DNA of 64,000 nt, taken from assembly GCF_900199635.1 (NCBI RefSeq), contig NZ_LT962687.1:1721501-1785500 (forward strand). The letters are read 5' to 3'. Position numbers and translations under genes: made by a program. The stretch is from Anaerotruncus massiliensis (ex Togo et al. 2026) (GTDB taxonomy: Bacteria; Bacillota; Clostridia; Oscillospirales; Ruminococcaceae). Below the pieces are notes generated by a model. It ran no database searches and was not told the DNA's origin. It saw nothing but the letters and a program-made list of their open reading frames with translations. Shown here one piece after another: positions 32,922-47,962 of this stretch; within the stretch, counting starts at the first letter, position 1, and every line of letters starts with the position of its first letter.

Positions 32922-35624
32922 TCAGGTGGTTACCGGCTCGGTCTCGCAGCAGGTCAGCAGGAACGCGCGCCGCTCCCCCGACCACGCGACCTCCTCCATG
33001 CGGGCGGAAAAGCGCTTCCTGAGCAGGGGGCTGTACACCTCGGCGCCCGCGGGGGAACCCTCCAGCAGCACGGGGCAGCCGGTGCAGGGCTCCGGGCTCC
33101 CGAACAGCGCCATATGGCACCGCTCCCCGACACGCAGGCCGGGAAGAAGCGCCCGCGCCCGCGCGTTGGCGTAAAGGATCTCGAAGCTGTCCCGGTCGAC
33201 GACGAATACCCATGAATCCCGGTGGTTGAGGACCGCCTCCAGGCTGCCGACCAGCCGGTTCGCACGGCTCTGCGCCCGCTTTTTGAGCAGGAAGGCGCTT
33301 ACGATCTCGGAGACGAAGGTGAGGGTGTCGACCTGCTTCTGCGTCCACAGGCGGTTGCTGCGGCACTCGTCGAAGCCGAGCCCGCCGTGCAGCTCCGCGC
33401 CGTCGTGGATGGCGCACTGGAGGGCGGAGCGCACCCCCCGCCGCTCCATCAGCTCACGCACGGGACCGGGCAGCAGCGAGGTGTCGCGGCAGTAGAAGAC
33501 GCCCGTCTCGCGGAGCATGTCGAGCTGGCGGGAAAAATCCCCGCAGGCGAACGTCTCGCCGGCCGTTTCGCCGAATTTTTCGCGGGCCTCCTCGCGGCAC
33601 CACTCGAAGGTGTTGCGGAAGCTGCACCCGTCCTCCGAAATCTCGAAGAGATAGGCGCGGCAGACGTCGAACTGCCGCCCGACAATCTCGAGGATCAGCG
33701 GGATCGCCGCCTCCACGTCGGCCGCCCGGTAGAGCACGTGGAACACATATTCCGCGAGCCGGTCGTCCATGACGCCGGCGTTGCGGTCGGAATCGATCGG
33801 CGCGCCCACCGAGGTCCTCGGCATCAGCCGCACGCTGTCCCTCCGTCCCCTGACCGACGCTTCCGAATGGAAGGCATAGCCGTTCTTTCCCCGTTCCTTC
33901 GCACGGTAGAGCGCCCGGTCCGCGTTGCAGAAAAGGGTGTTGAAATCCGCGCCGTCCTGGGGATAGAGCGCGATCCCGACGCTGCAGGAGAGGTTCTCCC
34001 CCGCCGCTTCCTTCCGGCTCAGGTCGCTGAAGACCTTCAGGATGTCCTCTGCCTTGCGCGAGACGATCCCGGCGTCGCGGATGCCGCGCATCAGCACGCA
34101 GAACTCGTCGCCGCCCACGCGGCCGACCACGTCGCCCGAACGGAACATCTTCTTGAGCGCGCTGGCCGCGTCGGAGAGCATCGCGTCGCCGCTCAGGTGG
34201 CCGTAGAGGTCGTTGACGAGCTTGAAATTGTCCACGTCGATGATCATCAGGGCGGAACTCGTCTCCCCCGCGTCCTCCGCGAGGTATTTTTCCACCAGCG
34301 TCTGGGTCGTGCCCTTGTTGTAGAGCCCCGTCAGCGCGTCCCGCTCCGCCTTCTCCTGGAGCTTCTGGGTCCTGCGCTTCTCCCGGTCGATGTCGATGAT
34401 CACCCCGACCGCCTTTGCGGGGCGGCCGTTCTCGTCCACCTGAAGGGTGGCGCGGACCCGGCACCAGATATAATTTCCCGCGGCGTCCGCGATGCGGAAC
34501 TCCGTCTCGCTGTAGGGGGTTCCCTCCCGGACGTTGCGCACCAGCAGGCAGAAGCGCTCGATGTCGTCCGGATGCAGGTGGGAACCCCCGGCGATCGCGA
34601 CGCTTGCGTTTTCCTTCAGCGCGTGGTAGCCGAATTTTTTGTGGTAGTTGGAGGAACAGCTGAGATAGTCCCGGCTGATGTCCCATTCAAAAATGATGTC
34701 GGTCGTCTGGTCCATGATGATCTGGTGACGCTCGAGGCTCAGGCGCAGCTCCTCCTGCGCCTTCTTGGTGCGGGTGATGTCGATGAGGATGCAGTAAAAC
34801 CATTTCCGGCCGCGCTCGTCCTCCACCAGCTGTCCCCGGTCGAGCACCCACACCAGCCGCCCGTCCTTGCAGCGCACCCGGTATTCGATCTCCTTGGTAT
34901 TGCTCTTCGCAAGCTGCCGGAGCGCCGTCTCCCAGACGCCGCGCAGGTCCTTTTCATAGATCATCCCGGCGAAATTGTTGTGGAACCGGGTTTGCAGCTC
35001 CTCCGCCGCATAGCCGAACATCGAGAGGAACCCCTCGCTGTACTGGATCAGCTTGAGGGTCTCGCCGTATTCGCAGCAGATGACGCCGCCCGGGATATTG
35101 TTGGTCAGCGCGTTGAGGTCGCGGTTCATCTCCTCCAGCTCGGCGGTGCGCTCGTTGAGCATCCGGCGGAGACGGCCGGTCCCCTCCTCCGAGACGGTGT
35201 GCGGGAAGAATTCCCCTTCGAGCTGTTCGCTGCTCGGCGTCGACAGGTGCAGCTGGCGCAGCTTCAGGCCGTCCGCCTCCCGGCGGCAGATGCAGGACAC
35301 CCGCAGCAGCAGATCGGGCTGCCCGGCGGGCATGTCCTTCTCCCGCAGGCAGATCTCCCCCGTGACAAGGCAGAGCTCCTCCGTAAGGGCGGCGGCCTCG
35401 TAGCCGTCCTCCTCGAGGGAAAAGGAGCCGTGGAACACGCGCCGTTCCATCTCCAGCATCTTTCGCGCTTCGCGGATGCCGCGGCAGCCGTCCTGGCGGC
35501 CGGTGCCGATCCATTCCACGTCGTCCGTCATCCGCGCGAGCACGCCGTCGAGGTCGCGTTCTGCAAAGTACATCCTCGAAAGGAGGGCGACAAAACGCAG
35601 GGAATCCTGTTCCAGCTGGTTCAT
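32922..35624 (-). CDS. multi-sensor diguanylate cyclase (SnoaL-like / PAS / PAS / GGDEF / GAF / PAS-like)
   Basis: A 900-residue cytosolic protein. Order: an NTF2/SnoaL-like domain at about 1-130, a coiled coil near 150-180, a PAS near 185-300 (FSMFGYAAEELQ-like), a PAS near 310-430, a GGDEF domain at about 430-600 with the exact GGDEF motif near 504, a GAF-like domain near 640-790, and a C-terminal PAS-like segment with CTGCPVLLEG. The inhibitory I-site RSGD lies exactly five residues before GGDEF, so it should be an active, product-inhibited cyclic di-GMP synthase. No EAL or HD-GYP domain. Start ATG 35624 follows AAGGAG. Monocistronic. Confidence 0.9.
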   Translation of the reverse strand: MNQLEQDSLRFVALLSRMYFAERDLDGVLARMTDDVEWIGTGRQDGCRGIREARKMLEMERRVFHGSFSLEEDGYEAAALTEELCLVTGEICLREKDMPAGQPDLLLRVSCICRREADGLKLRQLHLSTPSSEQLEGEFFPHTVSEEGTGRLRRMLNERTAELEEMNRDLNALTNNIPGGVICCEYGETLKLIQYSEGFLSMFGYAAEELQTRFHNNFAGMIYEKDLRGVWETALRQLAKSNTKEIEYRVRCKDGRLVWVLDRGQLVEDERGRKWFYCILIDITRTKKAQEELRLSLERHQIIMDQTTDIIFEWDISRDYLSCSSNYHKKFGYHALKENASVAIAGGSHLHPDDIERFCLLVRNVREGTPYSETEFRIADAAGNYIWCRVRATLQVDENGRPAKAVGVIIDIDREKRRTQKLQEKAERDALTGLYNKGTTQTLVEKYLAEDAGETSSALMIIDVDNFKLVNDLYGHLSGDAMLSDAASALKKMFRSGDVVGRVGGDEFCVLMRGIRDAGIVSRKAEDILKVFSDLSRKEAAGENLSCSVGIALYPQDGADFNTLFCNADRALYRAKERGKNGYAFHSEASVRGRRDSVRLMPRTSVGAPIDSDRNAGVMDDRLAEYVFHVLYRAADVEAAIPLILEIVGRQFDVCRAYLFEISEDGCSFRNTFEWCREEAREKFGETAGETFACGDFSRQLDMLRETGVFYCRDTSLLPGPVRELMERRGVRSALQCAIHDGAELHGGLGFDECRSNRLWTQKQVDTLTFVSEIVSAFLLKKRAQSRANRLVGSLEAVLNHRDSWVFVVDRDSFEILYANARARALLPGLRVGERCHMALFGSPEPCTGCPVLLEGSPAGAEVYSPLLRKRFSARMEEVAWSGERRAFLLTCCETEPVTT

Positions 35625-35682
35625 GCTCTCCTTCTTTCCGGCCGTCTGCGGGCCTGTGATCGTTTTGTGATTCGTAATTATT

Positions 35683-35711
35683 ATTTTATCCCATATATTT
35701 CTAAAAAACAA
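35683..35711 (-). promoter_or_regulatory. promoter of the diguanylate cyclase gene
   Basis: Minus strand TTGTTT (35706-35711), 17-base spacer, TAAAAT (35683-35688), upstream of the ATG at 35624. Confidence 0.6.
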
Positions 35712-35842: not shown

Positions 35843-36544
35843 TTATCTTTCCTGTTGCCCGTAGTAGGCGTGCGCGCCGTGCTTGCGCAGATAGTGCCTG
35901 TCCAGCAGCACCCGCTGCATGGGCTCGAGGGTGTTCCCCGAGAGCGCCTTGCAGTGCCAGGCCATCATGGCGACCTCCTCGAGCACGACGGCGTTGTGCA
36001 CCGCCTCCATCGGGTCCTTCCCCCACGCGAAGGGGCCGTGGCTGTGGACCAGCACGCCGGGAACCGCCGCGGGGTCGAGCCCCGCGAACCGCTCGACGAT
36101 GACCGCGCCCGTCTCCCTTTCATACGCCCCGGCGATCTCCGCCGCCGTCATCCGGCGGGTGCAGGGAATCTCCCCGTAGAAGTAGTCGGCATGGGTGGTG
36201 CCGTATGCGGGGACGCCCATCCCCGCCTGGGCGAAGATGGTCGCCCACCGGCTGTGGGTGTGCACCACTCCCCCAAGTCCGGGGAACGCCCGGTAGAGCT
36301 CCAGATGGGTCGGCGTGTCGGAGGAGGGGTTGAGCGTCCCCTCCACGCGTTCGCCCGTCCCGAGCGAAACAACCACCATGTCTTCCGGACGCATCGCCTC
36401 GTACTCGACGCCCGACGGCTTAATCACCACGAGCCCCTTTTCCCGATCGACGCCCGAGACGTTCCCCCAGGTGAAGGTCACGAGCCCGTGGGCGGGCAGC
36501 CGCATGTTCGCCCGCCAGACCTCCTGTTTCAGCGCTTCCAGCAT
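35843..36544 (-). CDS. L-ribulose-5-phosphate 4-epimerase (AraD/UlaF/SgbE family)
   Basis: 233 residues, matching the AraD family length. Features: TWGNVSG near residue 26, [22 protein letters not shown], zinc His residues in [10 protein letters not shown] and [10 protein letters not shown]. Converts L-ribulose 5-phosphate to D-xylulose 5-phosphate. Start ATG 36544 is preceded by GAGGGGG. Last gene of the operon, after the UlaE-type 3-epimerase; the pair lets L-xylulose 5-phosphate enter the pentose phosphate pathway. Confidence 0.92.
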
Positions 36545-36557
36545 GTCTTTATCCCCC

Positions 36558-37406
36558 TCAACAGTCCCCGCACCGCTCAAACTGGCGGCGCAGGAACCGG
36601 TTGTTTTCCAGAAGCCGGGCCTTCCAGTCCGGTTCCCCCGTATACCAGAATTCGGCCGTAAAGGCGCGCACCCCGAGATCGAGCGCCCTTCGCACCGCGC
36701 CGGGGAAATCCACGTGCCCGGTCCCGTAGGGGACCTCGCGGTAGACGCCCGGGCACGTCTCCTTGAGATGCATCGCCGCGATGTGCCCGCCCGCGCTGGC
36801 GAGGTCGTCGAGCACGTCGGTGCGGTAGAGCTTCGCCGCGTTGGTCATGTTGCCGATGTCGGGATAGACGGACAGGTAGGGCGAACCGATCTGCGCGACG
36901 TAGCGCATCGCCTTTTCGCAGGTGTCCATAAAGGGCGTCTCCATCGTCTCGAAACCGAGCTGCACCTTGTGCGCGGCGGCAAAGTGCACCGCCCGGCGCA
37001 GGTTCCGGAGAAAGTTCTCCCGCGTGCGCGCGTTCGATTCGCGGTAGTATTCGTCGTATCCGGCCAGCTGGATGAGCCGCACCCCGACCGCTTCGGCCAG
37101 CAGCACCGCCCCCTCGAAAATTTCCATGCCGCGCCCGGCTGTTTCGGGGTCCTCGCTGCCCAGCGGGTATCGGCGGTGGGCGCTCAGGCACATCGTCGCC
37201 ACCGGGCAGCCGGCGCGGGCGGCGCTCTCCACGAGGCGCAGCCGCTCCTCTTCGCCCCAGTCCAGCCGGGCGAGCTTCTCATCCGTCTCATCGATGCTGA
37301 TTTCGAGGCAGTCGTAACCGGCCTCACACGCAGCCGCCAGCTTTTCGGGGAGGGACAGGCTCCCGGGCATCGACTTCTCGTAGAGCCCCAGCGTGTATCC
37401 GTCCAT
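36558..37406 (-). CDS. L-xylulose-5-phosphate (hexulose) 3-epimerase, UlaE/SgbU-like
   Basis: 282 residues, xylose-isomerase-like TIM barrel. N-terminus [10 protein letters not shown] and [17 protein letters not shown] match UlaE; metal ligands are likely in [15 protein letters not shown] and MHLKETCPG with the later Glu in TAEFWYTGE. Interconverts L-xylulose 5-phosphate and L-ribulose 5-phosphate. ATG 37406 overlaps the kinase stop by one base. Confidence 0.88.
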
Positions 37407-38920
37407 CACAGGCACCCCCAGACCGGCTCGAGCGCCTGCGCGACCTTCCGGTAGGCGCGGCGCTTCTCCCGGTAGGCGGCCGTCTTTTCCAGATCGGGTT
37501 CCACCCGTTCCCTGACCCGCACCATGCCGCCGGCCGCCGCCCGCAGGTCGGGATAATCGCCCGCCATCACGGCCGCGGCCATCGCGCAGCCGAGCGCGCC
37601 GAGCTCGGCGGTGTCGATCACCTCGACCGGCAGGCCGGTGACGTCCGCGAACAAACGCACCCACAGCGGGGATTTCGCCGCCCCGCCCGCGAGCCGGATG
37701 GCGTCTGGACGGGGGCGGTTGGCCAGCAGCCGGTCGATGTGGTCCATGTGGCAGAAGACGATTCCCTCGAGCACCGCGCGGATGATCTGCCCCTTGGTGT
37801 GGGAGCTGTCCATGCCCACCAGCGCCGCCCGGGCCCGGGGATTGAAGTTGGAGCCGAACAGGTAGGGCAGGAAAACGATCCTTTCCCCGCCGTCCGGCGC
37901 CTCCGCCGCGAGCCGGTCGGCGTATTGGTAAACCGACAGGCCCGCGGCCGCTGCCTCTTCGCGCAGCTCCTGCAAAAACATTCTGGTAAACCACTCGTGA
38001 TTTCCCGCCGAGGTGGGGCTGCTCTCTTCCACAAGATAATATCCCGGCAAACAGAATATCGAATTCATCAGCACCGAGCCGTTTTTGACCGGCTCGCGCG
38101 CGACGTATTCATTGATGCCCCAGGTTCCCGCGATCACGCAGAGGTTTTTTTCATCGGTGACGTCCATGGCGACGGCGCAGGCGTCGATGTCGAACATGCC
38201 GCCCGCGACCGGCGTGCCCTCCTTAAGCCCGGTGAGGCGCGCGGTCTCCGCCGTGACGCGCCCGCAGCGGTCGCACGAGCGGCGAAGGGGCGGCAGGCGG
38301 TCGAAAAGCTCCTCCAGCCCAAACAGGGCGAGCAGCTCGCGGTCGTAGCCGCAGGCGTCGAGGTTGACGAGGTTGGCGCCCGAAAAATCGGTGAGCTCGG
38401 CGTATGCCTCCCCCGTCAGGCGAAAGCGTATGTAATCCTTGACCGAAAAGATCCATCGAATGTTGTCAAGCAGTTCCGGCCGGTGGTCCTTCATCCAGGC
38501 GAGCAGGCTGACCTGCTGGCTGGCGAGCACCTGCTGGTAGGTCTTTCGGAAGGCGCGGTCCGCCGTCCCGTCCTCCCGCCACCGCCGCGGGTATTCCCAC
38601 GCGCGCGTGTCGGTCGAGACGATGCCCGGACAGACGGGGCGGTCATCCCTCCCCCAGAGGTAAAGCCCCTTGCCGTGCCCGGTGCAGGAGATCCCCGCAA
38701 TCCGCGCGGCGGGCACGCCGCTCTCCTCCGCCACGCGGCGGATGCAGCGGCAGTTGGCGGCGTAAAGCGCCTCCATGTCCCGCTCGGTAAAGCCCGGCGC
38801 GGGGGTCAGCAGGGGGACGCTTTCGGACGCCTGCGCGACCTCATGCCCCGCCGCGTCAAAGAGGACCGCCTTGGTGAGCGTTCCCCCGTTGTCAATTCCC
38901 AGATAAAAGCGCTGTTCCAT
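37406..38920 (-). CDS. FGGY carbohydrate kinase, L-xylulokinase (LyxK)-like
   Basis: 504 residues. ATPase N-domain GIDNGGTLTKA, GFTERDMEALY, and in the C-domain ESSPTSAGNHEWF, IVFLPYLFGSN and VFCHMDHIDRLL, a series that matches LyxK more than glycerol, xylulose or rhamnulose kinases. It would phosphorylate L-xylulose. It is followed by a UlaE-type epimerase, the expected next step. This is a homology-based guess; another ketose is possible. Confidence 0.78.
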   Translation of the reverse strand: MEQRFYLGIDNGGTLTKAVLFDAAGHEVAQASESVPLLTPAPGFTERDMEALYAANCRCIRRVAEESGVPAARIAGISCTGHGKGLYLWGRDDRPVCPGIVSTDTRAWEYPRRWREDGTADRAFRKTYQQVLASQQVSLLAWMKDHRPELLDNIRWIFSVKDYIRFRLTGEAYAELTDFSGANLVNLDACGYDRELLALFGLEELFDRLPPLRRSCDRCGRVTAETARLTGLKEGTPVAGGMFDIDACAVAMDVTDEKNLCVIAGTWGINEYVAREPVKNGSVLMNSIFCLPGYYLVEESSPTSAGNHEWFTRMFLQELREEAAAAGLSVYQYADRLAAEAPDGGERIVFLPYLFGSNFNPRARAALVGMDSSHTKGQIIRAVLEGIVFCHMDHIDRLLANRPRPDAIRLAGGAAKSPLWVRLFADVTGLPVEVIDTAELGALGCAMAAAVMAGDYPDLRAAAGGMVRVRERVEPDLEKTAAYREKRRAYRKVAQALEPVWGCL

Positions 38921-38941
38921 TGGTTTCTCCTTCCCTGCGGG

Positions 38942-39889
38942 TCAGGTTTTCTTGTACTCGAAGAACTTGCCCTCCGCACGGGGCGCCTGCGACGACTTGG
39001 AGAAGACGACGAGCGCCAGCATCGTCACGACGTAGGGGAAGACCTTGAGGGCCAGCGGCGGCACGCTTGCGAAGGAGGGCAGCAGCATGGAGATCTGCGC
39101 CATCGTCACCGCAAAGCCGAAGAAGAGGGTGGCCGCCAGGATGCGGAAGGGCTTCCACTGGCCGAAGATGAGCCCCGCGAGCGCGAGGAAGCCGAGTCCG
39201 TCGACCGAGCCGTTGCACTGGCCGGCGGTCGTCACCGTGTAGATCGCGCCGCCCAGTCCCGCGCAGGCGCCCGACAGCAGCACGCCCGCGTAGCGGATGC
39301 GCGCGACGCTGATGCCCGCGGCGTCGGCCGCCTCGGGGAATTCGCCGCAGGAGCGCAGCCGAAGACCGAAGGGGGTGCGCTCGATGACGAACCAGCTGAC
39401 GATCAGAATCACCAGCACGAACCAAGTGGTCGGGTAGGTGTCGGTCAGAAAGAGCTTGCCGATCACGGGGATGTCCTTGAGCACCGGAATGTCCACGCGG
39501 GTCATGCTGTTGACGACGATGTTGCCGGTGCCGACGAACCGCCGCGAGATGTAGAGCACAAGCGCGCCAGCCATCAGGTTGATGGCCGTTCCGCTGATCG
39601 TCTGGTCGGCGTTGAGGTTGATGCTCGCGAAGGCGTGCAGCACCGAAAAGAGGGTGCCCGCCAGCATCGCGAGCAGGATGCCCAGCCAGGCGGCGCGCGC
39701 GTTGCCCATCAACGGCCCGAAGTAGTAGACCGAAACGCCGCCGACGAAGGATCCGATGACCATCAGCCCCTCGAGGCCGATGTTGATGATGCCGCTGCGC
39801 TCGGAGAAGAGGCCGCCCAGCGCCGTGATGAGGATGGGGACGGTATAGCCCACCGCGTAGGGGGCCATCTGTTCAATGGTGTTCCACAT
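38942..39889 (-). CDS. ABC transporter permease of BMP/nucleoside type (NupQ/YufQ-like)
   Basis: 315 residues, about nine hydrophobic helices. GLFSERSGIINIGLEGLMVIG is the family signature near the N-terminus and AGLIFGQWKP lies near the C-terminus. Overlaps the other permease by 17 bases. Part of an importer together with the BMP lipoprotein and ATPase. Confidence 0.88.
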   Translation of the reverse strand: MWNTIEQMAPYAVGYTVPILITALGGLFSERSGIINIGLEGLMVIGSFVGGVSVYYFGPLMGNARAAWLGILLAMLAGTLFSVLHAFASINLNADQTISGTAINLMAGALVLYISRRFVGTGNIVVNSMTRVDIPVLKDIPVIGKLFLTDTYPTTWFVLVILIVSWFVIERTPFGLRLRSCGEFPEAADAAGISVARIRYAGVLLSGACAGLGGAIYTVTTAGQCNGSVDGLGFLALAGLIFGQWKPFRILAATLFFGFAVTMAQISMLLPSFASVPPLALKVFPYVVTMLALVVFSKSSQAPRAEGKFFEYKKT

Positions 39890-40994
39890 GTTCCCCGCTC
39901 CCTTCCGATTTGGACGGGCGTTTGCGCCCGAAGAATTTTTTGATCCGGTCGAGGTTCATCTCGATCAGCTTGCTGGTCGCCGCGAAGTAGATGACCGTGG
40001 CGATGATCGTGTCGGCGATCTCGGGCGGGATGGGCATCATGGCGTTCATGAACCCCTTGCCCGTCTGGAGGATCGCGAAGAAGATCGCGGCAAAGACGAC
40101 TCCCACCGGCGCGCAGTTGGCCAGCAGCGCGACCGCGATGCCGTCAAAGCCCTGGGAGGGCATGACGCCGATGCGCATGTTGGAGAGGTAGCCGCAGTAG
40201 AAGGTGAGCCCCGCCAGCCCGGAAAGCGCGCCCGAGATGACCATCGCGAGCACCGCGTTCTTCTGGACGTTGATGCCGCCGTATTCGGCCGCGAAGCGGT
40301 TGAAGCCGACCGCTTTCATCTCATAGCCGAGCACCGTCCGGTTGAGGATGAAGATGACCAGCGCGGTGGCGATGATCGCGATGAAGATGCCGAGGTTGAG
40401 GTTGGAGCCCTTGGTCAGCAGGGTGATCGCCTCGGTTTTCAGCGAAGCGGCCGCCGGGATGACCTGTGACTCGGTATCGATCGTGGTGGATTTGAAGTGG
40501 TCGGAGATGACGATGTAGACCACCCAGTAGGCCACCCAGTTCATCATGATGCAGGAGACGACCTCGTTGACGTTGAAGCGCGCCTTGAGAAAGCCGGGGA
40601 CCGCCGCCCACACCATGCCGCCGACGATCGACGCGGCGATGACGAGCGGCAGCAGCAGCGGCCGGGGCAGGCCGGCGGTGAGGGCCAGCACATTGGCGAG
40701 CAGGCCGCCGATCAGCATCTGGCCGGGCGCGCCGATGTTGAAGAGCCCGGTCTTGAAGGCGAAGGTGACCGAAAGGCCGGTCAGCATGAGCGGCACCGCG
40801 TAGGCGATCGTGTTGCAGATACGGGTGACGCTCTTGAGCCCTCCCTGAAAGAGGTAGGAAAACCCGGTCAGCGGGTTCGCGCCGCTCGAAAGCATGAGCA
40901 GGGCGCCCGCGACGAACCCGAGCAGGATCGAGATGACCGAAACGAGGATCTTCATCCCGCTCTTCTGTCTGGAACTAGCGTTCAACGCCGCCAC
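39873..40994 (-). CDS. ABC transporter permease of BMP/nucleoside type (NupP/YufP-like)
   Basis: 373 residues, about ten hydrophobic helices. Contains LTGLSVTFAFKTGLFNIGAPGQ, the typical loop of this family. Frame opens at GTG 40994, overlapping the ATPase by 20 bases; ATG 40955 (MKILVSV) is an alternative start with a more typical N-terminus. Heterodimer partner of the next permease. Confidence 0.87.
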   Translation of the reverse strand: MAALNASSRQKSGMKILVSVISILLGFVAGALLMLSSGANPLTGFSYLFQGGLKSVTRICNTIAYAVPLMLTGLSVTFAFKTGLFNIGAPGQMLIGGLLANVLALTAGLPRPLLLPLVIAASIVGGMVWAAVPGFLKARFNVNEVVSCIMMNWVAYWVVYIVISDHFKSTTIDTESQVIPAAASLKTEAITLLTKGSNLNLGIFIAIIATALVIFILNRTVLGYEMKAVGFNRFAAEYGGINVQKNAVLAMVISGALSGLAGLTFYCGYLSNMRIGVMPSQGFDGIAVALLANCAPVGVVFAAIFFAILQTGKGFMNAMMPIPPEIADTIIATVIYFAATSKLIEMNLDRIKKFFGRKRPSKSEGSGEHVEHH

Positions 40995-42510
40995 CGTCCT
41001 TTCCCACGCCGGCCATCATCAGGCCGACCTCGTTTTCATCGGTATCCTTCGCGAGCACTTCGCCGATCACCTGCCCGGCGTTGATCGCGACGATCCGGTC
41101 GGAAAGCTGGAGCACCTCGTCAAGTTCCAGCGAGACGAGCAGGACCGCCCGCCCGAGGTTGCGCTGTTCGACGATGCGCTTGTGGATGTACTCGATCGAC
41201 CCCACGTCGAGGCCGCGGGTCGGCTGCACGGCGATGAGCAGAACGGGCTGCTTTTCGATCTCGCGGCCGATGATCGCCTTCTGCTGGTTTCCGCCGCTGA
41301 GGCTCCCCGCCCGCGAGAGGACCCCCTCGCCCGCGCGCACGTCGTAGTCGTCCGCGATCCTCGCGGCGTAGTCGTGGATCGCGCGCTTGTTGAGCAGGCC
41401 GTGCTTCGAGAAGGGCCGCTGGCCGTAGACCTCGAGGACCATGTTTTCCTCGACGGTGTAGTCGAGCACCAGCCCCCGCTTCTGGCGGTCCTCCGGGATG
41501 TGGGAGACGCCGCGGCGGATGCGCCGCGCGATCGTCTCGTGGGTGATCTCCTCCCCGTTCAGGAGGATTTTCCCCTTCTCCGCCCTGCGCAGCCCGGTGA
41601 TCGCCTCGACCAGCTCGGACTGGCCGTTGCCGTCCACGCCCGCGATGCCGACGATCGCCCCGCCGCGCACGGTGAGGGAGAAGTCGCGCAGGCCGAGGCT
41701 CCCGTGGCTGTTCTTGACCGACAGGTCCTCTATCTGCAAAACCGGGTCTCCCGGCGTCTTTTCCTCTTTATCGATCACAAAGGAGATCTCGTGCCCGACC
41801 ATCATCTCCGCCATCTCCTGTTCGCTCGTGGCGGCGACGTCGACCGTTGCGATGTGGCGGCCGCGGCGGATGATCGTGCAACGGTCCGCGACCTCCTTGA
41901 TCTCCTTGAGCTTGTGGGTGATCAGGATGATCGATTTGCCCTCGCTGATGAGGTTTTTCATGATCGCGATGAGCTCCCGGATCTCCATCGGGGTGAGCAC
42001 CGCGGTGGGTTCGTCAAAAATCAGCACCTCGGCGTCGCGGTAGAGCATCTTGAGGATCTCCACCCGCTGCTGCATACCGACCGAGATCTCCTCGATCTTC
42101 GCGTTGGGGTCCACCTCCAGACCGTACTGCCGGGAGAGCTCCGCGATCCGCGCGGCGGCGGATTTGAGGTCCATCGTAACGCCCCTGCGCGGCTCCAGGC
42201 CGAGGACGATGTTCTCGGTCACGGTGAAGTTATGGACCAGCTTGAAGTGCTGGTGCACCATGCCGATGCCCAGCTCGTTGGCGACGTTGGGGTTGGTGAT
42301 CTGGACCTCTTTGCCCTTCACCAGGATCTGCCCCTCATCCGCCCGGTACAGCCCGAACAGGATGCTCATGAGCGTGCTTTTGCCCGCGCCGTTTTCCCCC
42401 AGCAGCGCGTGCACCTCGCCCTTTTTCAGCTGTAATGTGATGTGGTCGTTCGCGCGCAGCCCCGGGAAATCCTTCACGATGTCGCGCATTTCCACGACGT
42501 ATTCCGCCAT
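40975..42510 (-). CDS. ABC transporter ATP-binding protein, duplicated (NupO/YufO-like)
   Basis: 511 residues with two ABC domains, as in sugar and nucleoside importers. Half 1 has Walker A GENGAGKST, signature ISVGMQQRVEI and Walker B VLIFDEPTA. Half 2 has a degenerate P-loop (GVDGNGQSE), signature LSGGNQQKAI and Walker B LLIAVQPTRG. Start ATG 42510 with GGAGG upstream. Confidence 0.93.
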   Translation of the reverse strand: MAEYVVEMRDIVKDFPGLRANDHITLQLKKGEVHALLGENGAGKSTLMSILFGLYRADEGQILVKGKEVQITNPNVANELGIGMVHQHFKLVHNFTVTENIVLGLEPRRGVTMDLKSAAARIAELSRQYGLEVDPNAKIEEISVGMQQRVEILKMLYRDAEVLIFDEPTAVLTPMEIRELIAIMKNLISEGKSIILITHKLKEIKEVADRCTIIRRGRHIATVDVAATSEQEMAEMMVGHEISFVIDKEEKTPGDPVLQIEDLSVKNSHGSLGLRDFSLTVRGGAIVGIAGVDGNGQSELVEAITGLRRAEKGKILLNGEEITHETIARRIRRGVSHIPEDRQKRGLVLDYTVEENMVLEVYGQRPFSKHGLLNKRAIHDYAARIADDYDVRAGEGVLSRAGSLSGGNQQKAIIGREIEKQPVLLIAVQPTRGLDVGSIEYIHKRIVEQRNLGRAVLLVSLELDEVLQLSDRIVAINAGQVIGEVLAKDTDENEVGLMMAGVGKDGGGVER

Positions 42511-42534
42511 CACAGGTTCCCTCCTCCCAAATAA

Positions 42535-42563
42535 GGGCGGGGCGGCGGAAAGCCGCCCCGCCC
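42535..42563. terminator. strong hairpin between BMP gene and ABC genes (attenuator or stabiliser)
   Basis: Stem GGGCGGGGCGGC (42535-42546) with its complement (42552-42563). No T run follows on the minus strand, so it is more likely to stabilise the upstream mRNA, giving more binding protein than membrane subunits, than to terminate. Confidence 0.6.
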
Positions 42564-42589
42564 GTCCGTGGTCTTGGTGTGCCGGTCTT

Positions 42590-43738
42590 TTAGTTGTACG
42601 CGGAGACATCGGTCGGCTCGGCCGAAACGACGATCTCGCCGGTCTTGATCTTCTCGAGGACGGCGTCCGCCTCCTTCTGGACCTCGTCGGAGAGGTTGGG
42701 GTTGGTCTCGGGGATGCCGACGCCGCCGTTCTTGGCGTCAAAGATGATCTGCTGGCCGCCGACAAATTCGCCGTCCAGCTCCGCCTTGATCATGTCGTAG
42801 GTGGAGTTGGCGAGGTTCTTCATGGTGGAGGTCAGCGTGACGGAGCGGCCGTCCTCAAGCAGGCCGTCCTCGTACTGGTCGACGTCGCAGCCGACGACCC
42901 AGACCTCCTCGCCCTTTTCGGCGCGGGCCTTGGCCTCATTGAAGCCGCCGAGCGCGGTGGTGCCGCAGGCGCAGTAGACGAGGTTGCAGCCGGAGTTGAA
43001 GAGCTGCGCGGTGATCTGCTGGCCGAGGGCCGCGTCGCTGAAGGAGCCGGACCAGACAAAGTTTTCTTCCTTCATCTTGATGTTTGTGCCGAAGTTCTCG
43101 TTGGCGTAGATGACGCCCTGCTGGAAGCCGGTCTTGAAGAGCTTCGTCGGGGGAATCTCCTGGCCGAAGAGGGCGCCGAACTCGCCTTCCTTGAGCTGGA
43201 GGGCGCAGGCGAAGCCCGCAACAAAGCCGGACTCCTGGGCGGCGTAGTCGATGGCAGCGGTGTTCGCGGCGATCTCGGGCGCCTCGGCGCCGTCGTCCTG
43301 CGGGGCGCTGTCGAGGATGACGAATTTGCAGTCGGGATAGATCTTCTGGGCGTCAAAGATCGCCTTGGAGAAGGTGTAGCCCGGGGTGATGATCATGCGG
43401 AAGCCCGCGTCGTAGAGGTTCGCGATCTCCTGCAGGAAGCCCGCGGCGGACTGGTCGGCCGCGATGAGGTACTTGGTCTCGATGCCGAAATCCTCGGCCG
43501 CGCGGGTGATGCCCGCCCAGGTCGCCTGGTTGAAGGACTTGTCGTCGATCGTCTTGGCGTTGCAGACCATGCCGACCTTGAGCGCGGGCTTATCGGCGGG
43601 CTGCTCCGCGGGCGCCTCGGACTGCGCCGCGGAATCGGCGGGGGCCGAGGGGGTTTCGCTTCCCTGCTGGGAGCCGCAGCCGGCCAGCATGGACATGCCG
43701 ATACAGATTGCCAGGACTGTTGCAAGAATCTTTTTCAT
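42590..43738 (-). CDS. BMP-family substrate-binding lipoprotein (nucleoside-type)
   Basis: 382 residues. Signal peptide with lipobox LAGC (Cys21), a Ser/Pro/Glu linker, then the BMP fold: KVGMVCNAKTIDDKSFNQATW, MIITPGYTFSKAI, YAAQESGFVAGFA and VVGCDVDQYEDG. The family binds purine and pyrimidine nucleosides. Start ATG after GGGAGGA. Encoded directly upstream of the matching ATPase and two permeases and downstream of a nucleoside hydrolase. Confidence 0.93.
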   Translation of the reverse strand: MKKILATVLAICIGMSMLAGCGSQQGSETPSAPADSAAQSEAPAEQPADKPALKVGMVCNAKTIDDKSFNQATWAGITRAAEDFGIETKYLIAADQSAAGFLQEIANLYDAGFRMIITPGYTFSKAIFDAQKIYPDCKFVILDSAPQDDGAEAPEIAANTAAIDYAAQESGFVAGFACALQLKEGEFGALFGQEIPPTKLFKTGFQQGVIYANENFGTNIKMKEENFVWSGSFSDAALGQQITAQLFNSGCNLVYCACGTTALGGFNEAKARAEKGEEVWVVGCDVDQYEDGLLEDGRSVTLTSTMKNLANSTYDMIKAELDGEFVGGQQIIFDAKNGGVGIPETNPNLSDEVQKEADAVLEKIKTGEIVVSAEPTDVSAYN

Positions 43739-43766
43739 CTTTTTTCCTCCCTGAAACGGTTGTTAT

Positions 43767-44702
43767 TTAAGCAAACAGCTTGAACAGGCGTTCCTTATAG
43801 AGCTTGCTGTTTACCTGCTGACAGATTTTGGCGTTGCTCTCCCGGTGGAGCTGGCGCTGCTTGTCGATCGAGAAGTACCCGTAGGTCATCTCCGCCTTCG
43901 TCTCGATGTCGCAGTAGGCGTCATAGACCGGGCCCATGACCTCGGGATAGACGACCGCCATCATGATGACGCTGTCGATCACGCCGTAGCTTTCGTCGCC
44001 GTATTTCTTCTTTTCATAGGCGCGCAGGCCGGCGGTGCAGTCGACACAGAAATCCGCGACGCGGCTGTGCAGGCCGCGCAGGTATGCGATGTCGCCGGGA
44101 GTGATCGCCGTGTCGCCCCGGCAGACGTCCCACGTCACCCAGGTCGCGTCCATGCCCGAATCGAGCACGATCTTGGCCGCCTCGGCGTCGACATAGACGT
44201 TGAATTCGGCGGCGGGGGTCGCGTTGCCCTGGTCCATGCCCGTCGCGCCCATGATGTAGACCTTTTTGACGTTTTCGGCGATGCGCGGCTCCTTGAGGTA
44301 CGCCATCGCCAGGTTGGTCAGCGGGCCGAGGGTGACGATCTCGATCTCGCCGGGATTCTGCATCACCGTGTCGATGATCGCGTCCATCGCGTGGCCCTTC
44401 GCCTCCGAAAGCGGCGGGTAGGGCAGGTTGAGGTCGCTCAGCCCGTCCTTGCCGTGCACGTAGTCGGCGGTGAAGAGCTTGGGCCGCACCAGCGGCCGGG
44501 CCATGCCCCGGTAGACGGGCGGCGCGTAGGTGCCCGCCACGTCGACGGCGATCAGCGCGTTCTTGACGCACAGGTCGAGCGGCACGTTGCCGCAGACGAC
44601 GGTGATCGCCTCCACCTTGACCTCGTCCACCGCGCGCAGCGCGGCGATGAGCGCCCAGACGTCGTCCGAGCCGGTATCGGTGTCGATTAGAAGCCTTCTC
44701 AT
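43767..44702 (-). CDS. inosine/uridine-preferring nucleoside hydrolase family protein
   Basis: 311 residues. Calcium-binding Asp cluster DTDTGSDD at residues 7-14, VCGNVPLD, VTLGPLTNLAMA and the EFNVYVDAEAA region. The usual catalytic His of the C-terminal loop cannot be assigned with certainty. The enzyme splits the N-glycosidic bond of nucleosides to base and sugar. Start ATG 44702, GGAGG upstream. Its position between a sugar isomerase and a nucleoside-type importer suggests that it releases the sugar that the operon metabolises. Confidence 0.88.
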   Translation of the reverse strand: MRRLLIDTDTGSDDVWALIAALRAVDEVKVEAITVVCGNVPLDLCVKNALIAVDVAGTYAPPVYRGMARPLVRPKLFTADYVHGKDGLSDLNLPYPPLSEAKGHAMDAIIDTVMQNPGEIEIVTLGPLTNLAMAYLKEPRIAENVKKVYIMGATGMDQGNATPAAEFNVYVDAEAAKIVLDSGMDATWVTWDVCRGDTAITPGDIAYLRGLHSRVADFCVDCTAGLRAYEKKKYGDESYGVIDSVIMMAVVYPEVMGPVYDAYCDIETKAEMTYGYFSIDKQRQLHRESNAKICQQVNSKLYKERLFKLFA

Positions 44703-44726
44703 AGTGTTCCTCCTTTGTTCTGCCGC

Positions 44727-45986
44727 TCAGCGCCTGCCGAGCACCTCCCGCTCGTAGCGCTTGACCTCGTCGAGCCACTGCGCGCCGACCGGTTTTTCCT
44801 TCGTCATGCAGTAATAGTCCCACACCGCGGAGAAGGGCATCGACTTGGTCTCCTCCCACAGCGCCAAGCGGCTGGTGAAGTCCCCCTCCAGCTCGGCGCG
44901 CTTGATCGCGCCGATCGGGTCGAGCGCCGCCTTTAGAAGCGCCTTGCGGGTGTTGCGCATCGCGATCGCCCAGCAGGCGATCCGGTTGATCGACGCGTCG
45001 AAATAGTCCTGCCCGATGAAGACGCGGTCCTCGTAGCCGTTGTGGATGACCGCGTTCATGATCCGCTGGAGCTCGTCGTCCCACAGTACGACGTGGTCGC
45101 TGTCCCAGCGCACCCCCCTGCTCAGGTGGAGCAGGACGCTGTCCAGGAACTGGAGCACCGCGCTGATCTTGTCGCTGATATACTCGGTGGGATGGAAGTG
45201 GCCCGCGTCGAGGCAGTAGACCTTGCCGCGCGTGATCGCGTAGCCGAGGGAAAACTCATGGCTGGCGGCGGTGTAGCTCTCCACCCCCATGCCGAACAGC
45301 TTGCTCTCGACCGACTCCCGCACATACCGCACGTCGAGCGGGCGCTCAAAGATCTCGTCGAGCGCGGAGACCATCCGCTCCCGCAGCAGCTTGGTGTCGG
45401 CCGGGAGATCCTTGTAGCCGTCCGGCATCCAGTAGTTGACCACGCAGGTCTGCCCGAGCCTGCGGCCGAATTCCTCGCCGATCTCCCGGCAGCGCCTGCC
45501 GTGCTCGATCCAGAATTCCCGGACGCCCGGGTTGCCGCTCGTCAGCGAGAGGTTGCCGTCCATCCTCGGGTGGGAGAAGAAGGTGGGGTTGAAGTCGAAG
45601 CCGAGCCCGCGCTCCTCTCCCCACGAAAGCCAGCCCTCGAACTGCTCCGCCGTGTAGGCGTCGCGGTCGAGCTTTTTGCCGCCGAGCTCGGCGTGGCAGG
45701 CATGCAGGCTGAGCTTCACCTTCCCGGGGATGAGGCGCAGCGCCTCGTCGATGTCCGCGCGCAGCTCGTCCGGCGTGGCGGCGCGCCCGGGATAGTTGCC
45801 CGTCGCCGCGATGCCGCCGGTCAGCTCGCCGATGCCGTCGAAGCCGATCAGGTCGTCCCCCTGCCAGCTGTGCATCGACACGGGGATCCGGTCGGCCAGC
45901 TCGATCGCGCGGTCGACGTCGACGCCCGCCCGGCCGTAGATATCTTTTGCATATTGGTAGCCTTTTACTATGGTTGCTTCGTCCAT
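44727..45986 (-). CDS. rhaA: L-rhamnose isomerase family (possible L-lyxose/L-xylulose isomerase)
   Basis: 419 residues, the same as the E. coli enzyme. Motifs: VSMHSWQGDD, KLSLHACHAE, FDFNPTFFSHP, NYWMPDGYKDLP, GHFHPTEYISDK, WDSDHVV. Metal-dependent aldose-ketose isomerase. The E. coli enzyme also turns L-lyxose into L-xylulose. No rhamnulokinase or aldolase is present in this operon; the kinase is LyxK-like. Start ATG 45986 follows AGGAGGG. First gene of the operon, divergent from lacI. Confidence 0.93.
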   Translation of the reverse strand: MDEATIVKGYQYAKDIYGRAGVDVDRAIELADRIPVSMHSWQGDDLIGFDGIGELTGGIAATGNYPGRAATPDELRADIDEALRLIPGKVKLSLHACHAELGGKKLDRDAYTAEQFEGWLSWGEERGLGFDFNPTFFSHPRMDGNLSLTSGNPGVREFWIEHGRRCREIGEEFGRRLGQTCVVNYWMPDGYKDLPADTKLLRERMVSALDEIFERPLDVRYVRESVESKLFGMGVESYTAASHEFSLGYAITRGKVYCLDAGHFHPTEYISDKISAVLQFLDSVLLHLSRGVRWDSDHVVLWDDELQRIMNAVIHNGYEDRVFIGQDYFDASINRIACWAIAMRNTRKALLKAALDPIGAIKRAELEGDFTSRLALWEETKSMPFSAVWDYYCMTKEKPVGAQWLDEVKRYEREVLGRR

Positions 45987-46291
45987 TGTGACCCTCCTGG
46001 TTCCCGGCGGGATTCCCCCGTCCGGAGTGCTGCCCACGCAGCGGTTTTTGCATCCGTGTTTTATTAAAAAATATCGCATAATTTACTAAATATCAAGCGA
46101 ATGTCAATACATTCTCCTTTTTACACAAAATATTATGCAAAAAACCGGGGATTACCACGATTTATCTGTATGAAATTTCCACCTCTCAGCTAAACTTTAA
46201 ATAATTTAATAAAATCACTTGTTTTTTTGAACGAATCTGATATAGTATAAATAGAATCCACAAAAGTTTTGAACAGAGGAGAGGTGTCCTT
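45987..46291. promoter_or_regulatory. divergent promoter/operator region of rhaA operon and lacI
   Basis: A 305-base A/T-rich spacer. For the rhaA side, TTGACA on the minus strand (46102-46107) with a poor A/T-rich -10 near 46078-46084. An 11-base palindrome ATTTACTAAAT (46081-46091) lies inside this promoter and is a candidate LacI-family operator. For lacI, TTGTTT (46219-46224), 16 bases, TATAGT (46241-46246). No gene is seen here. Confidence 0.55.
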
Positions 46292-47317
46292 GTGAATCTG
46301 AAGGAGATCGCCAAAGCGGCAAAGGTATCCCCGTCCACCGTCTCGCTTGTCCTCAACGACAAGGGGGGCGTCAGTCCCAGGACGCGGGAGCACGTCGCCA
46401 CCCTCCTCTGTGAAAACGGGTACAACATCAACTACCACAAGCCGGAGGTGCAGCAGAAGAGCATCCGGTTTTTGAAGTACAGCCGCCACTCCCACCTCGT
46501 CAACGGCAACGCGGGCTTCGTCTCCGCGATCATCGACGCGGTCGAAAAGGAGACCCGCCTGCTCGGCTACAACCTCGTGATGACCGTGTTCGGCGAGAAC
46601 AACATCAGCGAGGTCTTCGACCTTGTGCGCAACCAGCCGCTCTGCGGCATCATCCTGCTCGCAACCGAGATGGAGGAGGCGGACTATGCCTACCTGCACG
46701 ACATCCCCGTGCCCATCGTCGTGGTGGACAACTATATGGATTTCCACAGCTTCAACTGCGTGGATATGAACAACACCGAGTCCACCTTCGCCGCCGTGCG
46801 GCACCTCGCCGGACTCGGGCATCCGCGCATCGGCTACCTCTATAATAAAATGCCCAGCAGCAACTGCCGCGCGCGCCGCGCGGCTTACGAGGCGGCGCTT
46901 CGCAGCCTCGGCATCCCCTACGACCCGGCGCTTGTCTACCCGATGCACCCCACCCTTTCGGGCTCCTATGAGGACACCCTCAACATGCTGCGGCAGGGCG
47001 TTTCCTTCCCCTCGGCGCTGGTGGCCACCAACGACAGCATCGCCATCGGCGCGGTCAAAGCGTTCAAGGAATCCGGCATCCGTGTTCCCGGCGACGTCTC
47101 CGTCATCGGGTTTGATGATATTCCCTTCTCCGCCATCGCGGACCCGCCGCTCACCACCATGAAGGTCTCCTGCAAGGACATCGGCATGTGGGCGGTGCGG
47201 CTGCTCTGCGACCGGATCGATTACCCCGACTCCCCCGTCGCCAAAATCCAGATCGGCGCACAGCTGATCGTGCGGGAGAGCACCGGGCCCTATCGAAAAA
47301 ATACGACTGATGAATGA
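46292..47317 (+). CDS. LacI-family transcriptional regulator
   Basis: 341 residues. N-terminal HTH and hinge (MNLKEIAKAAKVSPSTVSLV, LNDKGGVSPRTREHV), then a periplasmic-binding-protein-like effector domain (IGFDDIPFSAIADPPLTT). The GTG at 46292 follows AGAGGAGAGG. Divergent from the ten-gene pentose/nucleoside locus and most likely its repressor, with a sugar as inducer. Confidence 0.95.
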   Translation: MNLKEIAKAAKVSPSTVSLVLNDKGGVSPRTREHVATLLCENGYNINYHKPEVQQKSIRFLKYSRHSHLVNGNAGFVSAIIDAVEKETRLLGYNLVMTVFGENNISEVFDLVRNQPLCGIILLATEMEEADYAYLHDIPVPIVVVDNYMDFHSFNCVDMNNTESTFAAVRHLAGLGHPRIGYLYNKMPSSNCRARRAAYEAALRSLGIPYDPALVYPMHPTLSGSYEDTLNMLRQGVSFPSALVATNDSIAIGAVKAFKESGIRVPGDVSVIGFDDIPFSAIADPPLTTMKVSCKDIGMWAVRLLCDRIDYPDSPVAKIQIGAQLIVRESTGPYRKNTTDE

Positions 47318-47329
47318 GGTTATACTGCC

Positions 47330-47962
47330 ATGATCCAATCCATACGGCCCGTCGGCTCCGACGCCTTCGGGCCTTACGGCAGGGTCGTCGCCGGCTACCG
47401 GTTCGACGGCCTGCTTCAGGTACTGCGCGAACACACCCCCAGGCCGTCCGACGGCACGGTCTACGTCGCCTCCGACCCGCGGCTCGAGCGCCTGCCCGTC
47501 TTCGGGGAGGTGCAGGCGGGCTTCTTCGGCGGCCTGCCCGCCCAGTTCGGCTACTGCAACGGCGTGAACACCCGGCTCGCCTGCTGTGAATACCACCAGT
47601 GCAGCGAGCTGCTCGTCGCGGCGGACGACCTCGTGCTGGTCGTCGGGCCGCGCGGCGGCATTTCGGGCGGCGTCTGCGACACCGCCCGGTTCGAGGCGTT
47701 TTCCGTCCCGGCCGGCACGGCGGTCGAGCTCTACGGCACGACGCTCCACTACGCCCCCTGTTCCGCGCGCGCCGGGGAGGGGTTCCGGGCGCTCATCGCG
47801 CTCCTGCGGTTCACGAACTTCCCCCTGGCGGCGGGCGGAGACCCCTCGCTCGCGGCGGTCAACAAATGGGTGCTCGCGCATCCCGATTCCCCCGAGGCAA
47901 AGCAGGGCGCCCATATCGGACTTTCCGGCGAGATCGTCGACATCGCTCCGCTCATCGCCTGA
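47330..47962 (+). CDS. DUF4867-family protein, cupin-like
   Basis: 210 residues. I recognise the DUF4867 pattern: QFGYCNGVNTRLACCEYHQC, a glycine-rich turn, FSVPAGTAVELYGTTLHYAPC and a C-terminal NKWVLAHP. The metal-like residues (Glu, His, Glu, His) resemble a cupin active site. Function is unproven; a sugar mutarotase or isomerase accessory role is conceivable. It starts 12 bases after lacI and is co-transcribed, so it probably serves the divergent sugar operon. Confidence 0.75.
   Translation: MIQSIRPVGSDAFGPYGRVVAGYRFDGLLQVLREHTPRPSDGTVYVASDPRLERLPVFGEVQAGFFGGLPAQFGYCNGVNTRLACCEYHQCSELLVAADDLVLVVGPRGGISGGVCDTARFEAFSVPAGTAVELYGTTLHYAPCSARAGEGFRALIALLRFTNFPLAAGGDPSLAAVNKWVLAHPDSPEAKQGAHIGLSGEIVDIAPLIA

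Follow-up and report, generated by a model that had tools for sequence, protein, structure and literature searches.

What does an operon degrade when it joins a rhamnose isomerase homologue to the machinery for importing and splitting nucleosides? The question is raised by a locus at 35843..47962 of a 64-kb stretch of the Anaerotruncus massiliensis (ex Togo et al. 2026) genome (G000:C7:1721501-1785500; hereafter the window). All the named genes have uninterrupted reading frames and match their families in profile searches. On the minus strand they run RhaA2 (the isomerase homologue), IunH (a nucleoside hydrolase), a BMP-type binding protein with the ATPase and two permeases of its ATP-binding cassette (ABC) importer, an FGGY kinase, UlaE and AraD; a LacI regulator and a DUF4867 protein are divergent. 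Neighbouring minus-strand genes overlap or lie 13-79 bases apart, so the nine genes likely form one operon. A sequence-only reading of this DNA had described such an operon, facing LacI and DUF4867 and missing rhamnulokinase and rhamnulose-1-phosphate aldolase. The frames and family profiles confirm it, the domain matches (PF00356, PF13377; PF16161) fall at the expected place, and neither missing enzyme was found in the cluster by profile searches.

We tentatively read the operon as one linked catabolic system, fed by a nucleoside and running through L-lyxose and L-xylulose, and place this slightly short of probable. A PnrA-type ABC importer would take up a nucleoside, which IunH would split, freeing a pentose with 2R,3R hydroxyls. 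RhaA2 would isomerise this pentose, L-lyxose, to L-xylulose, the LyxK-type kinase would phosphorylate it to L-xylulose-5-phosphate, and UlaE and AraD would convert that through L-ribulose-5-phosphate to D-xylulose-5-phosphate for central metabolism. DUF4867 may speed ketose ring opening, and LacI may repress at the -10 region. We infer each reaction in this organism, above all an L-lyxo sugar on the imported nucleoside, from the genes, their order, families, residues and neighbourhoods. RhaA needs 2R,3R hydroxyls and UlaE and AraD act on L-pentulose 5-phosphates; together these requirements indicate L-lyxose. If the pentose of a ribonucleoside-like molecule is L-lyxo, the molecule is the 4'-epimer. 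It is conceivable, though we think it unlikely, that the food is a 4'-epimeric ribonucleoside (an alpha-L-lyxofuranosyl nucleoside), arising from radical or oxidative damage at C4' or from an unknown biosynthesis. Such a compound would suit all parts, offering a nucleobase to the importer, a 2',3'-cis-diol to IunH, 2R,3R hydroxyls to RhaA and an L-pentulose to the kinase and epimerases. To our knowledge no nucleoside-fed L-pentulose pathway has been known before, and no nucleoside-fed L-lyxose/L-xylulose pathway was found in the literature, judged from titles and abstract openings and with subscription journals mostly outside. If true, this would be the first, and it would point to a natural L-lyxosyl nucleoside.

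Support for the L-pentulose branch is good: rhaBA lies elsewhere in the genome, the methyl pocket of the isomerase is changed, and 51/80 loci with this type of kinase have UlaE or AraD nearby. At C7:1318961 the genome carries another rhaA, which adjoins a rhaB (TIGR02627 558, passing the cut-off of 528; NF007925 478, missing 639). RhaA2 is therefore a spare copy, and an ordinary rhamnose operon was rejected on this ground. RhaA2 itself passes NF002203 (591, cut-off 572) and misses TIGR01748 (562, cut-off 585). That rhaBA pair is present although none of the five class II aldolases in the genome reaches a RhaD cut-off; only the one in the window reaches that of AraD. Nor does RhaA2 have an L-rhamnose setting, since its cluster lacks rhaB and rhaD and the methyl-contact residue I47 is replaced by Leu. 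In the solved enzyme from L. rhamnosus (LrL-RhI), according to the excerpted text of PMC10908623, Trp42, Ile47 and Phe330 lie around the L-rhamnose methyl group, the I47 side chain lies 3.6 Å from C6, and relative activities are 100% on L-rhamnose, 28% on L-lyxose, 16% on L-mannose, 7.3% on D-ribose and 1.5% on D-allose. By alignment in LrL-RhI numbering, the metal and catalytic positions of RhaA2 (E228, K230, D261, H264, H288, D296, D328) are unchanged, as are Trp42 and Phe330.

RhaA is linked to this kinase at six loci outside the window: L094, L166, L177 (the same locus as L093), L190 and L195 (sister species of Diplocloster) and L205. We compared the seven kinase-linked RhaAs, window included, with 87 others. 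Position 47 is Leu in 7/7 and in only 1/87 others (79 Val, 5 Ile, 1 Asn, 1 Cys), position 62 (Gly in LrL-RhI) is Ala in 7/7 versus 4/87, and position 100, Tyr in all 87 others, is His only in the window and L205. The set provides a directly testable candidate substrate-switch residue in position 47. A quick tree placed the kinase-linked RhaAs in two starred clades, with RhaA2 grouping with L205. Two recruitments of RhaA to the kinase were considered; however, constraining the seven to one group gave a likelihood 11.4 higher (p-value of the approximately unbiased test, p-AU, 0.77), and one origin was not rejected. As the seven may be one clade, with two sister Diplocloster species among them, the 7/7 Leu may be a single inherited change. 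Relatives of RhaA2 were sought in 197 family genomes, 391 class genomes and 346 genomes of L205's class. The best near-full-length match outside its own genome was 55% in the family and 56% in the class (fragments reach 59%), and a 65% match occurs only in the L205 genome among the 346. No IunH or BMP gene adjoins RhaA outside the window in about 30 loci per search, inspected over 1.5 kb flanks.

Among six E. coli FGGY kinases, the window kinase is closest to LyxK (318 bits, 35%), ahead of LsrK (162), XylB (145), FucK (76), RhaB (52) and AraB (36), in agreement with its earlier description as LyxK-like. Its NCBIfam matches are all below cut-off, XylB first. A 7-row kinase alignment searched against the species-genome collection returned at least 595 stretches, 548 of them encoding a relative, and the best 80 were examined. 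Because only 35 of these 80 have both 10-kb flanks complete, the neighbour counts are lower bounds. UlaE is nearby in 50 loci, AraD in 20, either one in 51 and RhaA in 5. Adding L094, which comes from the same genus as the window, gives a set of 81 loci in which neighbour proteins within 9 kb of the kinase were clustered and each family was defined from one representative. SgbH/UlaD occurs in 0/81 at E 1e-6; the kinase substrate is thus probably L-xylulose and not 3-keto-L-gulonate, and a role as 3-keto-L-gulonate kinase was rejected. A zinc-type dehydrogenase lies near the kinase in 28/81 loci, in four of these no closer than about 8 kb. RhaA is near it in 6 loci, and the counts are 7 for a short-chain dehydrogenase, 8 for an aldo-keto reductase and 5 for an ASRT protein; 43 loci are without any of the three candidate feeders. 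RhaA and the zinc dehydrogenase never occur together (0/81 versus 2.07 expected; p ~0.07, weak alone), and the aldo-keto reductase is present in 6/6 RhaA loci versus 0/28 dehydrogenase loci. This suggests one L-xylulose module with alternative feeders, either putative polyol oxidation or L-lyxose isomerisation.

The best 80 relatives, many from metagenome-assembled genomes, belong to Bacillota (56), Spirochaetota (12), Pseudomonadota (4), Bacteroidota (2), Verrucomicrobiota (2) and Synergistota (1), with three unplaced. By contrast, a 2011 survey, in its excerpted text, confined LyxK to a few groups of Gammaproteobacteria (PMC3245297). The AraD of the window aligns end to end with solved AraD 1jdi. 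A 5-deoxyribose dihydroxyacetone phosphate shunt, or aldolase route, was rejected because profiles identify the class II protein as AraD and a UlaE accompanies it. All four E. coli-type L-lyxose enzyme types, namely the isomerase, the L-xylulokinase type, the 3-epimerase and the 4-epimerase, are present in the operon, their activity being predicted from sequence.

For the nucleoside part, the binding protein is closest, among solved structures, to TmpC/PnrA of T. pallidum (172 bits). In their excerpts, PMC13325309 and PMC7093131 name base-stack and sugar-contact residues of PnrA/BmpA-type proteins and report that BmpA and BmpD do not bind free ribose. By hand mapping on the TmpC alignment, the window protein keeps both stacking Phe, the two Asp and the Lys that these excerpts name for BmpA; close to the base, Asn and Ala replace Asp27 and Ser28 of TmpC. 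The binding protein appears to have a nucleoside-type pocket. The ATPase, after a B6-type model, scores best with sugar-importer models. In alignment, IunH retains D7, D9, D13, D14, N39, N160, E166, N168 and D243 of the calcium/ribose motif, of which N160, E166, N168 and D243 hold ordinary ribose in known enzymes. Just before D243 the window enzyme has Ile, the genome's two RihA-like enzymes have His, and five near homologues, each from a different genome, have Ala; in RihA-type enzymes a His ahead of the last Asp has a leaving-group role. At first look, IunH candidates in family genomes show an unexplained expansion (G116 60, G169 44, G050 36, G043 33, G095 23, G017 21; at most 11 scored each), and aligned members from G116, G169, G050 and G043 are without this His. 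Four of the five genomes with the kinase clusters L166, L181, L190, L195 and L205 have IunH-like matches somewhere, none of them on the cluster loci.

In the window, IunH and the BMP importer separate RhaA2 from the kinase. In L094 this slot is taken by an aldo-keto reductase with a CUT2-type importer, in L177 by an aldo-keto reductase with an importer of Liv type. With a sugar-type or Liv-type importer in this slot at two of six loci, and a nucleoside importer and hydrolase there in the window, the pathway is probably nucleoside-fed. The nucleoside source suggested by the sequence-only reading is thus favoured by operon membership, by gene order at those two loci and by the nucleoside-type pocket; its L-lyxo sugar is a conjecture, and the sugar-contact residues of IunH and BMP resemble those suited to ordinary ribose. 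The RhaA-LyxK loci outside the window also carry an aldo-keto reductase (6/6) and an ASRT protein, PF07100 (5/6).

Several observations weigh against a nucleoside-fed L-lyxose pathway. We know of no natural L-lyxosyl nucleoside, and none is named among the listed titles on lyxofuranosyl nucleosides. The seven-family system that had been proposed is present in the window, but its co-occurrence was found at no other sampled locus: IunH and BMP are each at 0/80 kinase loci and also absent from L094, which makes 0 at the other 81, and the combination of RhaA and kinase with IunH and BMP was found once only, in the window. The importer slot is occupied in just two of the six other RhaA-kinase loci. 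No importer gene was recognised between RhaA and the kinase in L166 and L205, or in L190 and L195, where the intervening genes encode an aldo-keto reductase, a nitroreductase and either a sensor kinase or a regulator. The window cluster is without the aldo-keto reductase of all six and the ASRT protein of five. A second BMP importer, followed by two RihA-like IunH genes, lies about 26 kb before the window (G000:C7:1688099-1694942; L135:4100-10970), so the importer and hydrolase genes may have been acquired together. The ribose-type look of IunH (N160, E166, N168, D243) and of the BMP sugar-contact positions keeps plain ribonucleosides in serious contention as a second substrate. LrL-RhI also turns over D-ribose, at the 7.3% given in the excerpt of PMC10908623.

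These points bear differently on the alternatives. It is a real possibility, although on balance an improbable one, that the operon holds two functions, with RhaA2, the kinase, UlaE and AraD degrading L-lyxose or a related sugar, and IunH and the BMP importer scavenging ribonucleosides whose D-ribose goes to a ribokinase elsewhere. The retained ribose-binding positions, the other BMP and IunH operon, the uniqueness of the combination and the four of six RhaA-kinase loci with no recognised importer between both genes all agree with such a division. However, it would leave the L-lyxose branch without its own importer in the operon, when L094 and L177 have one between RhaA and the kinase, and the nucleoside genes lie inside the operon, not at its end. 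A repurposed importer for free L-lyxose or a lyxoside, with IunH splitting a non-nucleoside lyxoside, seems to us improbable. The BMP importer does occupy the slot of L094's sugar-type importer, the His before the last Asp is missing in IunH and its five near homologues, and the ATPase leans to sugar-importer models; yet the aromatic stacking pair is kept, and BmpA and BmpD, in the excerpts cited above, do not bind free ribose. We regard it as very unlikely that RhaA2 converts D-ribose of common nucleosides to D-ribulose, which the kinase would turn into D-ribulose-5-phosphate while UlaE and AraD serve another sugar. D-ribose shares the 2R,3R hydroxyls, is a weak substrate of LrL-RhI and would suit a ribose-type IunH, but the kinase is of LyxK type, UlaE and AraD are in the operon, one or the other is near 51/80 of its relatives, and a ribokinase route would be simpler.

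Among the known systems closest to the proposed nucleoside-fed pathway is the E. coli L-lyxose route (RhaA, LyxK, SgbU/UlaE, SgbE/AraD), which uses the same four enzyme types. Compared with the E. coli yiaK-sgbE and lyxose proteins, the window kinase is nearest LyxK, AraD is 69% identical to AraD and UlaE 39% to SgbU. In E. coli, however, L-lyxose isomerisation falls to the rha operon's ordinary RhaA, and rhaT is annotated as a rhamnose/lyxose symporter, whereas the window has a dedicated RhaA. The neighbours of LyxK in E. coli include SgbH and a 2,3-diketo-L-gulonate symporter, whereas the window has no SgbH and keeps a nucleoside importer and hydrolase in one operon. The clusters of Diplocloster (L190, L195), Sphaerochaeta (L205) and Clostridia (L094, L166, L177) share RhaA and the kinase type, and UlaE of L094, L166, L177, L190 and L195 is 35-60% identical to that of the window. 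They differ in their other importers, in the aldo-keto reductase (6/6) and ASRT protein (5/6), and in having no IunH or BMP. PnrA/Bmp importers beside IunH-type hydrolases, such as the pair before the window, share these two families; unlike in the window, none of the nine genes scanned at that locus was identified as a sugar isomerase, a pentulose kinase or an epimerase.

Table 1. Features of the locus, with window coordinates and supporting matches
Feature	Position	Strand	Support
RhaA2, RhaA paralogue, predicted L-lyxose/L-xylulose isomerase	44727..45986	-	PF06134 563 bits; 50% to E. coli RhaA; groups with L205
IunH-family nucleoside hydrolase	43767..44702	-	PF01156 (IU_nuc_hydro) 272 bits
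BMP/PnrA-type substrate-binding lipoprotein	42590..43738	-	PF02608 (Bmp) 194 bits; T. pallidum TmpC/PnrA 172 bits
ABC ATPase of BMP-type importer	40975..42510	-	best NCBIfam ABC_ATP_B6 471 bits, under cut-off 670
ABC permease 1	39873..40994	-	best NCBIfam ABC_B6_perm_2 153 bits, under cut-off 400
ABC permease 2	38942..39889	-	best NCBIfam ABC_B6_perm_1 144 bits, under cut-off 465
FGGY kinase, LyxK type, predicted L-xylulokinase	37406..38920	-	FGGY_N 193 bits, FGGY_C 125 bits; 35% to E. coli LyxK
UlaE-type L-ribulose/L-xylulose-5-phosphate 3-epimerase	36558..37406	-	AP_endonuc_2 129 bits; NF009689 321 bits, cut-off 200; solved relative UlaE 3cqh
AraD-type L-ribulose-5-phosphate 4-epimerase	35843..36544	-	Aldolase_II 174 bits; TIGR00760 393 bits, cut-off 389; 69% to E. 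coli AraD
LacI-family regulator	46292..47317	+	PF00356, PF13377
DUF4867 cupin, possible ketose ring-opening/mutarotase helper	47330..47962	+	PF16161 217 bits
Candidate LacI operator TTTACTAAA	46082..46090	.	sole TTTASTAAA in 64 kb; overlaps operon promoter -10
Promoter-like TTGACA-16-TAAATT for operon	46080..46107	-	10/12 positions

RhaA2 probably starts at 45986 rather than 46079, judging by the GGAGGG immediately upstream, and AraD probably starts at 36544.

For LacI, TTTASTAAA occurs just once in the 64 kb (0.01 expected), as the candidate operator TTTACTAAA at 46082-46090, which overlaps the -10 of TTGACA-16-TAAATT; the motif was chosen by eye, post hoc, after viewing these sequences. It is not enriched genome-wide (7 sites per strand versus 16 for the reversed pattern). 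Twelve other loci were scanned: L166 has three sites (0.13 expected), L181 one (0.04 expected), L094 one (0.30 expected) and L182, L174 and L148 one each, and the motif is absent from L177, L190, L195, L205, L208 and L159, four RhaA loci among them. Relatives of the window LacI are 49% identical in L166 and 45% in L181; the LacI proteins of L094, L177, L190 and L195 reach only 26-28%, and for L205 there is none among the matches listed. Long palindromes were sought in the RhaA2-LacI gap and yielded nothing. A TTTAGTAAA site at G000:C7:1322607-1322615 (L257, in L003) has rhaBA on one side and, on the other, genes encoding a PfkB-type kinase, a CUT2-type importer and a uridine-phosphorylase-like protein.

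DUF4867 keeps an E-x-H-x3-E motif and a later His when aligned with its solved relative 9gyy, and these fit the metal ligands given in the excerpted text of PMC11968277. There the family is proposed to act as a mutarotase or ring-isomerase in ketose metabolism, and no such activity was detected on sulfoquinovose (SQ) or sulfofructose (SF); in its largest cluster, 434/557 members lie in aldose/ketose neighbourhoods, FGGY kinases among them (PMC11968277).

A GC-rich hairpin with 12 GC pairs stands at 42535-42563, between the binding-protein and ATPase genes, and possibly sets the ratio of their expression. Directly past the operon, on the same strand, lies a PAS-GGDEF-GAF signalling gene at 32922-35711.

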